A stretch of 33,942 nucleotides of DNA from positions 1 through 33,942 of IMG/VR virus record IMGVR_UViG_3300013233_000546. One strand, given 5' to 3'. Position numbers and translations under genes: made by a program. Of the stretch, positions 349-9,569 are shown piece by piece. The stretch comes from a virus. Below the pieces are notes generated by a model. It made no database searches. It saw nothing but the letters and a program-made list of their open reading frames with translations, and had not been told where the DNA came from. How positions within the stretch are numbered: the first letter of the stretch is position 1; each line of letters opens with the position of its first letter.

Positions 349-696
349 TTAAAAGTTTGAATAAATTTCTTTACCAACACTTATGTTGTCGGGAAGTTGA
401 GTGATGCCAGTGCCACGGATGTCGAGGTACCCACCAACATTCAAGTTGTCTGGAAGTTGAGTGATGTCAGTGCAACGGAGATAGAGTGATCCATCAACAC
501 TCAGGTTGTCGGGAAGTTGAGTGATACCACTACCTTCTAGGTCGAGGTATCCACGAACACTCAGGTTGTCGGGAAGTTGAGTGTTGGGAATGTCTGCGAG
601 GTTGAGGGATCCTCCAACACTCAGGTTGTCGCCATAAATGTTAAATTCGACATTATTATCAATAAGATACTTTTTCAGTTTTATTGAAATCTTCAT
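349..696 (-). CDS. Leucine-rich-repeat-like protein (20-residue repeats)
   Basis: This gene encodes 115 residues. After a basic N-terminal stretch (MKISIKLKKYL) come about four tandem 20-residue units of the form LPDNLSVxGxLxLxxxxITQ. The repeat is obvious in DNA as a 60-bp period. The LPxxLxVxGxLxL pattern recalls the short LRRs of the IpaH/YopM kind and similar small repeat proteins often seen in phages. Such a protein would form a short solenoid used for protein binding. No enzyme motif or signal peptide is present. It is the third gene downstream of PL, preceded by a 73-nt gap with two competing hairpins. The ribosome-binding site is weak (AGAGA, upstream of ATG 696). The target is unknown; an anti-host or anti-defence role would be a guess. 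Confidence 0.8.
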   Translation of the reverse strand: MKISIKLKKYLIDNNVEFNIYGDNLSVGGSLNLADIPNTQLPDNLSVRGYLDLEGSGITQLPDNLSVDGSLYLRCTDITQLPDNLNVGGYLDIRGTGITQLPDNISVGKEIYSNF

Positions 697-1730: not shown

Positions 1731-1768
1731 CCTAAGGCTGCATGCAAAGCAACCCTAGGTCTTTTTTT
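1731..1768 (+). terminator. Probable rightward terminator
   Basis: CCTAAGG (1731-1737) pairs with CCCTAGG (1753-1759) over six base pairs with one mismatch, followed by TC and seven T. It would end the transcript of the 35-aa ORF, or a short RNA from the TATACT box near 1665, just where the convergent small ORF at 1767 ends. Confidence 0.45.
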
Positions 1769-1871
1769 AGAGGATCTTAAGTAATGCGGCGATTGCCGTA
1801 ACCAATCCCGTGAGGGCGGCTAAGGCTTTTGCAACATCAAGTTTTACCTCAATTGAAAGTGTGGTTTTCAT
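1767..1871 (-). CDS. Possible 34-aa hydrophobic peptide downstream of cI
   Basis: The frame encodes MKTTLSIEVKLDVAKALAAL and then a hydrophobic stretch ending in ALLKIL. The first half is charged and amphipathic, and the second (about 16-34) could span or coat a membrane. It lies downstream of the repressor gene on the same strand, separated by the structured segment 1895-2110. The ribosome-binding site is weak and the upstream RNA is heavily folded, so translation would be low or regulated. Small hydrophobic peptides behind structured leaders are typical of type I toxins, but that is inference from layout only. It could also be a chance ORF. Confidence 0.4.
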   Translation of the reverse strand: MKTTLSIEVKLDVAKALAALTGLVTAIAALLKIL

Positions 1872-1894: not shown

Positions 1895-2110
1895 CCTCCC
1901 GGGAGGGTCTTAAGTTAAAAGACCCACTTTTATATACCGCCTAGCGAGCGGTTAAGGTCGCCGAAACTAGTATAGGCTTCCTTAATCAGGTGTTTCTGCT
2001 GGCTCTGCCAGCCCAAACTTCGATCACAGACCTTGGTTTGGTTTCACCCTTAAGCGGCTTGCTTTAGCCGCAGTCGGGAAATAGCATATCTCCCTGCACT
2101 TCAAGTTTGG
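1895..2110. ncRNA. Candidate structured non-coding RNA between cI and PL
   Basis: This stretch has no significant ORF but dense complementarity. CCAAACTT (2013-2020) pairs with AAGTTTGG (2103-2110), an 8-bp long-range stem. It encloses the hairpin GCGGCT/AGCCGC (2054-2071) and a GGGA/TCCC stem. Immediately beside the closing stem is GCTGGC-TCT-GCCAGC (1998-2012). Further left are ACCGC/GCGGT (1936-1952), GGGTCTT/AAGACCC (1905-1925) and the palindrome CCTCCCGGGAGG (1895-1906), which overlaps the previous hairpin by two bases. The strand is uncertain; minus would make it the 3' part of the cI transcript or the leader of the 34-aa ORF. I do not recognise a known riboswitch or Rfam family. Confidence 0.5.
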
Positions 2111-2151: not shown

Positions 2152-2790
2152 TTAATCCATCCACATACCAATCACCTTGCCAAGAATTCTAAAATCACTT
2201 GAAACAATAGGGTATTGAGGATTCAGGGGTTTTAAAAATCGATTACCTGCATCTTCAACAAAAGCCTTGAAGGTTACCAAGTCCTCACCACAAACCTTTG
2301 CGATTACTCGGTCGCCGGTTGTGATACCTCCGCGCTGGTCTGGATCAACGTATATTAACGCGCCATCTGGATAGCTACGACCGTACGGACTTGTCATCGA
2401 GTCACCGCGAACACGAAGGCAATAGGTGTGAGGGCCATGCGAGATAGGGCATGGATAAAAGTCCTCGGCATCACCAGGCACATAATGATCTTCTGCCATA
2501 TGCCAGTTTCCAGCTTGAACCCATGATATGAGTGGTATAAGGCCTTTTGTTGATGGGCCTTGTTCAGTGTTGTCGTGAATCTGGTCAAGCCAGCCATGCG
2601 CTTTGTTGAACGATGACTCAATATCTCTAGCGAAATTACCACCTATTTGTTTCGTTGGGTTTTTTCCGATTGACCTACTTATCAATGTCTGTGGTTTGTT
2701 TGTTTTCTTTATGAACGCGCTTTGGCTGCCGGATTGCTTGGCCAGCCGCCGTGCGTTTTCTCTTCTTATGTCGTGTATGTCCATCTGCAT
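2152..2790 (-). CDS. cI: CI/LexA-type prophage repressor (HTH + S24 peptidase)
   Basis: The product has 212 residues. Residues about 5-50 form a short HTH-type DNA-binding domain. After a linker comes a peptidase S24/LexA-like domain with the Ala93-Gly94 cleavage site (WVQAGNW), nucleophile Ser131 (GDSM) and general-base Lys175 (VTFKAF). RecA-stimulated self-cleavage after DNA damage would cause induction. The ATG at 2790 has AAAGG upstream. The gene diverges from cro across 89 bp holding the right operators. The same operator sequence at PL shows that it probably represses both early operons. Confidence in the family is high because all catalytic and cleavage residues are visible. Confidence 0.93.
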   Translation of the reverse strand: MQMDIHDIRRENARRLAKQSGSQSAFIKKTNKPQTLISRSIGKNPTKQIGGNFARDIESSFNKAHGWLDQIHDNTEQGPSTKGLIPLISWVQAGNWHMAEDHYVPGDAEDFYPCPISHGPHTYCLRVRGDSMTSPYGRSYPDGALIYVDPDQRGGITTGDRVIAKVCGEDLVTFKAFVEDAGNRFLKPLNPQYPIVSSDFRILGKVIGMWMD

Positions 2791-7718: not shown

Positions 7719-7839
7719 CGAGTTCAGTGGAGGCGGGATCTGGTTACAATCCTAGTTAAGCCGTGGTGCTTGCTGATTTAGGGTTGACTTCACCTTATGA
7801 TCTAAACTACGCTTCGTCCGTCGCTGCACATCAGCGGCT

Positions 7840-7967
7840 GGGATTGGAACCCCATGTACGGGCGTATAGGCGCTCATTCGAAGCGTTTTTTTTGTGCCCC
7901 CAGTTTATGGTGGGCTGCGCAGGAGAGCCGTAAGGCTCGCCGATCTCGTACCGGTAGTTCCAATCCC
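7840..7967 (+). ncRNA. C4/Ash-like structured leader upstream of rha
   Basis: A perfect 11-bp inverted repeat bounds the element: GGGATTGGAAC (7840-7850) and GTTCCAATCCC (7957-7967). Inside are CGCT/AGCG plus eight T (7871-7893, weak terminator), GCCCCCA/TGG-GGGC (7896-7915, one bulge) and GAGCC-GTAA-GGCTC (7925-7938), a GNRA-type tetraloop. It lies upstream of a rha-like gene. The best-known RNA in such a place is the C4 antisense RNA of P1-type phages, which blocks antirepressor translation, and the embedded ORF recalls Ash family proteins. Identity as C4 is from memory of layout, not alignment. Confidence 0.45.
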
Positions 7968-8039
7968 GCGCAGTCTGCCACCTTAATTCGTCTGGAACCG
8001 AAAGTGGTAGATCTCTCAATCAGTACGAGGATCGTCCTT
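7854..8039 (+). other. Ash-like reading frame, in frame with rha
   Basis: Sixty-two codons from ATG 7854 are open and continue in frame into rha. They read MYGRIGAHSK, then LWWAAQESRKARRSRTGSSNP, a pattern recalling Ash-family phage ORFs. Because the same bases form the hairpins of the C4-like element, the codons may be a by-product of RNA structure. The RBS-like GGAAC is itself one arm of the inverted repeat. Confidence 0.35.
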
Positions 8040-8672
8040 ATGAATAACTTATCCATTACCCAAAATGATTGGGTTTCTGTTGTTAACAACACCGTTACCA
8101 CCACTTCCATGCAGGTTTCCCAGTTTTTCGGTAAGCGTCACGATGATGTCTTAAAGAAAATTAGAGCGCTGGATTGTTCTGCCGATTTCAACGCCCGCAA
8201 TTTTGCGGCGGTTGACTATCGAGACGCGAAAGGAGAGTTAAGACCCATGTGGGAGATGACCAAAGATGGTTTTATGTTCTTGGTGATGGGCTTCACCGGC
8301 AAGAAGGCTGCTAAGGTCAAGGAAGCTTATATTAATGCCTTCAACTGGATGGCCGATCAGTTGGCCTCTGAACGTGCTGCTGCATTGCCAGCACCTCAAA
8401 CCAGTATGGATGTGGTCTCTGGGTTGAACCCTATGGATGAGATTCACGCCGTTGATTTCTTTAATGGTGATCAGGAACTGGCCATATCCGTGGTAATCGA
8501 CTCACTCAAAGCCACCTGCCAACAAAACATTACCCTCTCGCTTGAGGGTGCAGAGATCGCACGAATGCAGGCCGAGTGGGATGCCGCACGCCATATCATT
8601 GAAAAAATGTACTGGAAGCTGCGCGACATCGAGAAGCTGTCCGCGAAGATCCCTTCCTTCAGACCCTTTTGA
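8040..8672 (+). CDS. rha: Rha family phage regulator
   Basis: The protein has 210 residues from ATG 8040, which has GAGG 9 nt upstream. Residues about 17-110 match the Rha domain: TTSMQVSQFFGKRHDDVLKKI, then DYRDAKGELRPMWEMTKDGFMFLVMGFTGKKAAKVKEAYINAFNWM. Rha proteins are DNA-binding phage regulators; in phi80 and P22-like phages expression interferes with growth in IHF-deficient hosts. The C-terminal half (about 120-210) is a separate, unrecognised helical domain ending in an amphipathic helix (WDAARHIIEKMYWKLRDIEKL). The upstream structured leader suggests control at the RNA level. The frame is open back to 7854, so an N-terminally extended form is possible. Confidence 0.83.
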   Translation: MNNLSITQNDWVSVVNNTVTTTSMQVSQFFGKRHDDVLKKIRALDCSADFNARNFAAVDYRDAKGELRPMWEMTKDGFMFLVMGFTGKKAAKVKEAYINAFNWMADQLASERAAALPAPQTSMDVVSGLNPMDEIHAVDFFNGDQELAISVVIDSLKATCQQNITLSLEGAEIARMQAEWDAARHIIEKMYWKLRDIEKLSAKIPSFRPF

Positions 8673-9041: not shown

Positions 9042-9569
9042 ATGAATAATAATGATGATAATCTGACTGCAAAACAGCGCGCTTTTATTGAAGAATATAT
9101 TATTGATTTAAATGCGACTCAAGCAGCGATTCGTGCTGGCTATAGCGAGAAAACAGCTCGCGCAATGGGTCACGAAAACCTAACAAAACCTAACATAATT
9201 GAAGCTGTTTATTTATTAAATCAAGAAAGATTAAATCGCTGTAAAGTCGATGCGGATTACGTTTTAAATCGATTAATTGAGATCGATAAAATGGATGTAA
9301 TCGACATTGTTGATGATGATGGCGGAATTAAAAGCATCTCAGAGTGGCCAGAGTCTTGGCGTAGAACAATCAGTGGGATTGATGTTTCTGAGGTTGGCGA
9401 GATTGGGTTTTTGAAGAAGATTAAGTGGCCCGATAAGATCAAAAATATTGAGTTGCTCGGCAAGCACGTCGATATTCAAGCATTCAAGGACAAGGTTCAG
9501 CACTCCGGCGAGATTCAAAACACGGCTCCCTCGATCAATCTGATTGTGAAAAACAGTGGCGGCGCTTGA
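9042..9569 (+). CDS. terS: Terminase small subunit
   Basis: This protein of 175 residues has the Terminase_2-type N-terminus: LTAKQRAFIEEYIIDLNATQ then AAIRAGYSEKTARAMG, an HTH that recognises pac/cos DNA (about 7-45). A helical middle and a C-terminal tail that contacts TerL follow. In-frame starts at 8994 and 9003 exist; 9042 is chosen because the conserved domain starts just after it and because a seven-codon mini-ORF at 9021 with a good ribosome-binding site ends in ATGA on this start. The first 200 bp are notably A/T-richer than the flanking genes. TerL overlaps its end by 14 nt. Confidence 0.87.
   Translation: MNNNDDNLTAKQRAFIEEYIIDLNATQAAIRAGYSEKTARAMGHENLTKPNIIEAVYLLNQERLNRCKVDADYVLNRLIEIDKMDVIDIVDDDGGIKSISEWPESWRRTISGIDVSEVGEIGFLKKIKWPDKIKNIELLGKHVDIQAFKDKVQHSGEIQNTAPSINLIVKNSGGA

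Follow-up and report, generated by a model that had tools for sequence, protein, structure and literature searches.

A candidate mobile RNA-plus-peptide module next to the repressor genes of temperate phages

Type I toxin mRNAs, such as those of hok/sok, tisB/istR and aapA/isoA, encode a small, hydrophobic membrane peptide behind a long and structured 5′ leader and are found on prophages. Classical type I systems depend on an antisense RNA. In lambda, OOP-type RNA runs antisense to cII beyond cro, and RNAs in the regulatory regions of other phages include the C4 antisense RNA (P1/P7) and the P4 CI RNA. The site between cI and pL is the home of lysogen-expressed exclusion genes, namely rexAB and the accessory genes in the same position (rex, bstA-like). 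Structured RNAs of enigmatic function include the multimeric ornate RNAs ROOL, GOLLD and OLE, of which ROOL and GOLLD are phage-borne; these two large phage RNAs form homo-oligomers through kissing loops (PMC12286853). Pairs of the hok/sok type occur in prophages (PMC8621323).

The unit described here shares its layout with the type I toxin mRNAs, its site with the rexAB-position genes and its setting in a phage regulatory region with the C4 and P4 CI RNAs. Like ROOL, GOLLD and OLE it is a structured RNA, and its conserved palindromic loop would be suited to kissing.

Anatomy of the RNA unit in the window

The window, by which we mean the whole 33,942-base viral record analysed, comes from a temperate phage whose portal relatives are in Microbulbifer, Pseudomonas and other gammaproteobacterial genomes. 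The RNA unit and the cI repressor gene are co-directional, and the first helix of the unit starts 58 nt after the cI stop. A pattern scan found palindromes at 2805 and 2856, the presumed pR/pRM, which match the TTACC-N5-GGTAA palindrome at 1483. These three sites place 1500–2150 between cI and the presumed leftward promoter. From this anatomy the RNA unit would sit where lambda has rex, between cI and pL. The features are as follows:

2152–2790, minus strand: cI-type repressor with an S24 peptidase domain (Pfam PF00717, E 2.9e-20; PHROG phrog_4 repressor, E 1e-33)
2076–2094, minus strand: helix P1 (GGGAGAUAUGCUAUUUCCC), from the fold, with 4 of 5 pairs covarying over 20 members
2054–2071, minus strand: helix P2 (GCGGCU...AGCCGC), the 6-bp GC hairpin of the original prediction, then conserved UUAAGG; a motif across members
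1988–2049, minus strand: P3 domain, a three-way junction closed by GGGUG (2049–2045) and CACCU (1992–1988), with arms P3a (2041–2036/2018–2013) and P3b (2012–2007/2003–1998); minimum-energy fold
1952–1985, minus strand: helix P4, 6 bp, an AA/GA internal loop and 3 bp, with the palindrome ACUAGU (1971–1966) in the terminal loop; 7 of 7 modelled pairs double-changed in the family
1936–1952, minus strand: helix P5 (ACCGC UCGCUAG GCGGU), then single-stranded AUAUAAAAGUG; every cell paired across the family (100%), with 3 of the pairs double-changed
1905–1925, minus strand: hairpin P6 (GGGUCUU...AAGACCC), then the palindrome CUCCCGGGAG (1905–1896); fold
1767–1871, minus strand: small ORF MKTTLSIEVKLDVAKALAALTGLVTAIAALLKIL, 34 aa, a putative single-span membrane peptide; position, size and hydrophobicity shared with members
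1731–1759, minus strand: terminator-like 11-bp hairpin at the end of the unit; terminator scan and fold
1483–1497, unstranded: operator-like palindrome TTACC-N5-GGTAA, presumed pL; pattern scan

The minus strand of 1884–2151 folds at −99.9 kcal/mol (z −4.4), a value that none of 200 shuffles reached, and the plus strand folds less well (z −3.1). The full unit, 2094–1731 on the minus strand, reaches a fold z of −5.8. The best-supported strand of the RNA is the minus strand, and it was fixed as such because G-U pairs are frequent across the family. These values bear out the original prediction that 1895–2110 is strongly structured, and the stems that it named are present (GCGGCT/AGCCGC at 2054–2071, GCTGGC/GCCAGC at 1998–2012, GGGTCTT/AAGACCC at 1905–1925 and TTAAGG/CCTTAA at 1952–1985). 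Its long-range 8-bp stem, CCAAACTT at 2013–2020/2103–2110, also exists, but not as the closing stem of the conserved fold: it conflicts with P3a (2013–2018/2036–2041) of the best minus-strand fold, and the conserved domain does not include one of its arms. Finally, the segment had been called gene-free; no credible gene was found inside 1895–2110, but on the minus strand the unit continues immediately beyond these coordinates into the conserved ORF of 34 aa.

The element is about 365 nt long and consists of a structured 5′ domain (2094–1925, minus strand), in which helices P1–P5 are conserved, followed by hairpin P6, the ORF and the terminator hairpin. Along the fold come the P1 and P2 hairpins, conserved UUAAGG, the variable P3 junction, P4 with its internal loop, P5, an unpaired UAAYAAGU or AUAUAAAAG, and P6. 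Among relatives P2 takes the forms GCGCC/GGCGC, GCAGC/GUUGC and GCGUG/CACGC, the P3 domain varies in length and a hairpin is found at the same place as P6.

Against Rfam 15 the window region gave only a sub-threshold plus-strand match (26.4 bits against a gathering score of 56), and the members gave no family match over the unit. The proposal of a possible new phage RNA is therefore supported, since no Rfam family matches and the fold is conserved in homologues. Neither Pfam nor PHROGs matched the peptide, known toxins included, and the literature, of which our coverage is incomplete, yielded no description of the element.

Two other features of the window were observed. At 7807–7985 on the plus strand there are a C4 antisense RNA (RF01695, 63.6 bits) and its target c4-a1b1 (RF03163). 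They immediately precede, and overlap, an ORF (7854–8672) whose DNA matches a Rha/Ant anti-repressor gene of an Aeromonas phage. The window phage thus has a P1-type anti-repressor circuit. Near the left end (349–696, minus strand), a 115-aa ORF is built of 60-bp tandem repeats and has a weak leucine-rich-repeat match.

Relatives, covariation and the small ORF

The family has 22 members including the window, the 21 relatives having been obtained through motif and covariance-model searches. Direct searches gave no match, be it blastn with the region against phages and plasmids, tblastn with the peptide against phages, or blastn against 245 genomes. Repressor and replication-protein scans yielded no relatives, and the region was not shared by portal loci. 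A repressor-based scan led to locus L103, where a weak peptide match pointed to a similar layout: CTGCGGC-loop-GCCGCTTAAGG, further stems, a small ORF starting MK and a hairpin. Scanning viral contigs for the L103 motif returned L146 (the same locus as L103), L147, L150, L151, L153, L154 and L155, plus four chance matches. Two other motifs gave L168–L175 and L180, a final motif gave L195 and L196, and genome searches with covariance model R2 gave L185, L186 and L188. The unit is rare, at 2 of 399 genomes of one order, 1 of 391 of another and 0 of 299 of a third under strict filters.

Several candidates were set aside: L148, L149, L152, L156 and L176–L179 as chance matches that, judged from sequence, lack the unit layout; L157–L159 as weak matches; L167 as coding; and a short match in L034 for its different sequence context. 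A second match in L175 (3140–3293, 18 bits) was rejected as chance, and its row is still in alignment A7.

Model R1 was built from L154, L147, L150, L146 and L151 only, with the window left out. It nevertheless recovers the window RNA, in which every modelled pair is intact (33.6 bits, E 3e-9), as well as L153 and L155. In an alignment of 17 members, paired cells make up 96.0%, and double changes affect 23 of 38 pairs, against 7.1 ± 1.8 in shuffled controls. With 20 members and the chance row, 95.4% of cells form standard pairs, 30 of 38 pairs are double-changed (shuffled, 14.2 ± 2.3) and double-changed cells number 105 (shuffled, 23.6 ± 4.0); sliding the partner by 1–3 columns leaves at most 43% paired and at most 16 pairs double-changed. 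Such counts lean towards structure, as the alignments are model-fitted and the sequences related, a weakness from which the held-out window match is free. The original prediction was to be refuted by homologues with stems broken without compensation; with 95.4% of cells paired and the excess of double-changed cells, the RNA withstood this test.

The P4 loop is palindromic in all 22 members. It reads CUAG in 11 and CGCG in 9 of the 20 aligned members, and CGCG again in L195 and L196. The UA-to-GC swap preserves self-complementarity and no other column follows it (the next best mutual information is 0.42, against 0.99). Pairing of the P4 loop with the P5 loop was rejected, as these loops do not co-vary. 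That self-complementarity is kept in either form of the loop suggests that the RNA forms a kissing homodimer through it.

The small ORF is as regular as the fold. In 16 of 16 members examined, the ATG of an ORF of 27–34 aa stands 47–55 nt beyond P5, and a GC-rich hairpin follows the ORF; that of L173 continues beyond the usual stop. With the 26-aa peptide of L185, the size range across the family is 26–34 aa. The peptides are hydrophobic and mostly of net positive charge. Codons with a single difference in four relative pairs, which are not fully independent, are synonymous in 29 cases and non-synonymous in 8, with 24.5% synonymous expected (P 8e-12). Codon comparison thus gives a clear signal of purifying selection on the ORF in relatives. 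Because the peptide is selected and the spacing fixed, RNA and ORF appear to act together.

Borders and genomic surroundings

Genes for S24 repressors lie near the unit in the window and in L146, L150, L153, L168, L169, L171, L172, L173, L174 and L186; for L146 the association partly reflects its retrieval by the repressor search. Most members have such a repressor nearby, and the viruses concerned are many and unrelated. The unit is mostly convergent with the repressor gene and is co-directional in the window, L172 and L168. Upstream of P1, relatives have a promoter-like GAGATACT. The unit of L146 has a promoter and operator-like sites ahead of it on the opposite strand.

At both ends of the unit, inverted repeats of 24–45 bp are found in 14 of 16 testable members, as in MITE-like elements; the window copy has neither these repeats nor a clear promoter. 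The repeats match better within a unit than between units, and the DNA similarity of distant members stops near them. That they are general phage operators is unsupported: the surrounding DNA holds 0 further copies within 3 mismatches and two at 5. A clear target-site duplication was not seen by eye at two flanks.

Copies outside immunity regions are those of L185 and L195. The L185 copy is an integron gene cassette beside an integron integrase (TIGR02249, 478 bits), with attC-like repeats, and its neighbour is a gene for an Mrr-type nuclease; no integron surrounds the window copy. In the cassette array of L185 (3500–11200), a gene for an IS110 transposase lies between the integrase and the cassettes. 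The L195 copy adjoins a YafQ toxin gene and genes for DUF4238 and DUF2971 proteins, the last resembling the PADLOC candidate PDC-S31. Defence-like neighbours were seen at two loci only.

Other structured RNAs and genes were noted nearby. In L150, L151, L169, L171, L173, L174 and L175 the left inverted repeat is immediately preceded by the Burkholderiales-2 RNA (RF02917), and this RNA and the unit may be functionally linked. The phage contig of L150 also has an RT-15 RNA (9105–9285, plus strand; RF03018, 144.5 bits), a family named for its association with reverse transcriptases. Near the unit in L154 (8480–8740, minus strand), an ORF resembles, by eye, a Cas2-type protein. In Pseudomonas phage MPK9 (L059, 2918–3560) and its relatives Haboob, PSA04, FBPa19 and PACT201, a long segment with little annotation comes after the C2 repressor gene; it folds well (z −3.85), with a long closing stem, and reaches no Rfam gathering score. 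We saw no sequence similarity to the window RNA and set this gap aside as a relative; it is possibly another undescribed RNA in the rex position.

Possible modes of action and comparison with known systems

Our preferred reading, which we hold tentatively, is that of a mobile prophage-borne module in which an RNA controls a membrane peptide. Its role would probably be exclusion, defence or addiction. One transcript would carry the folded P1–P5 domain of about 170 nt, probably a homodimer via the P4 loop, then P6 with a leader of about 50 nt, the ORF for a hydrophobic peptide of about 30 aa and the end hairpin. It would be expressed in the lysogen: the window copy probably through read-through of the cI gene, whose stop is 58 nt away, and the copies of relatives from their own promoter-like site. 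The folded domain would hold translation or stability of the peptide low until a trigger, for example superinfection or loss of host transcription, frees the peptide, which would act on the membrane and block growth or the incoming phage. Such a unit would work like a type I toxin mRNA with its control element in cis.

Several points speak against this module. No conserved antisense promoter was recognised, the window copy lacks inverted repeats and a clear promoter, and defence-like neighbours occur at two loci only. Conservation of the RNA in sequence and structure also far exceeds that needed for hiding a ribosome site, and the RNA could act in trans. The main rival is a dual-function or purely trans-acting RNA whose probably dimeric P1–P5 domain does the work by binding a protein, the ribosome or an RNA from host or phage, the peptide being a second product. 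No part of the unit is more conserved than the RNA domain, in which unpaired UUAAGG and UAAYAAGU are near-invariant; its P4 loop stays palindromic through UA/GC swaps without a co-varying partner column, and large phage RNAs that assemble through kissing loops are known (ROOL, GOLLD; PMC12286853). The clear selection on the peptide and the fixed distance between RNA and ORF nonetheless leave us doubtful of it.

The fixed order of folded domain, leader of about 50 nt, ribosome site and ORF in members would also suit a leader acting in cis, akin to a riboswitch or bound by a protein, through which a signal sets how strongly an ordinary small membrane peptide is expressed. Ligand-binding leaders usually precede varied genes, whereas here the peptide type is always the same; the unit moreover has its own borders and a probable promoter, and no Rfam riboswitch matches it, so we judge such a leader unlikely.

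A classical type I toxin-antitoxin, with a hydrophobic toxin and an unrecognised antisense RNA, fits the small peptide gene (26–34 aa, hydrophobic, mostly of net positive charge, selected), the long structured leader and the phage and integron locations, with hok/sok as a prophage precedent (PMC8621323). It seems quite improbable, as no conserved antisense promoter was recognised by eye in the unit and the peptide has no known-toxin homology in Pfam or PHROGs. Least probable is an immunity regulator tuning pL or cI, for example by antisense or transcription interference: it would agree with the site beside cI, the convergence with cI in many members and the opposite-strand promoter and operator-like sites of L146, but the unit is co-directional in the window, L172 and L168 and has copies outside immunity regions (L185, L195).

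Returning to the RNA-controlled peptide, one can conceive, with more reserve, of a new mobile class: a homodimeric RNA with kissing P4 loops and a selected membrane peptide of about 30 aa on one transcript, forming an anti-phage or superinfection-exclusion module of about 460 bp in prophages and integrons of Pseudomonadota. The integron-cassette copy suggests a benefit to the host. At less than 500 bp the unit would be one of the smallest modules of its kind, and it would escape protein-based searches for defence systems. Both the dimer idea and the RNA-peptide coupling are open to direct testing.

Compared with known systems, the OOP-like or P4-CI-like antisense role that had been suggested finds nothing to point to it. 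Relative to OOP, the unit is found across cI, with which it shares its strand. It matches C4 and P4 CI RNAs in neither sequence nor structure; the C4-clan model has no match over the unit, and its matches in the window are only at 7903–7985, the true C4 RNA of this phage, and at 7807–7858. The Burkholderiales-2 RNA is a separate motif that sits just upstream in seven Burkholderiales-type members, ends before the left inverted repeat and is absent from the window. The ROOL, GOLLD and OLE models gave no cmscan match; the new RNA is much smaller (a core of about 170 nt against several hundred nt), has an ORF and lies at the repressor rather than near tRNA islands. Where rexAB-position genes encode proteins, it offers an RNA and a 34-aa peptide: an RNA family new to Rfam, supported by covariation and coupled to a selected micropeptide, in the spot for lysogen-expressed exclusion genes of temperate phages. 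From type I toxin mRNAs it differs by its strictly conserved, separately folded RNA domain of about 170 nt, by having no recognised antisense RNA and by a peptide unrelated to theirs in Pfam and PHROGs. On these comparisons the family and its RNA-peptide coupling are new; the mechanism might turn out to be a variant of that of the type I toxin mRNAs.
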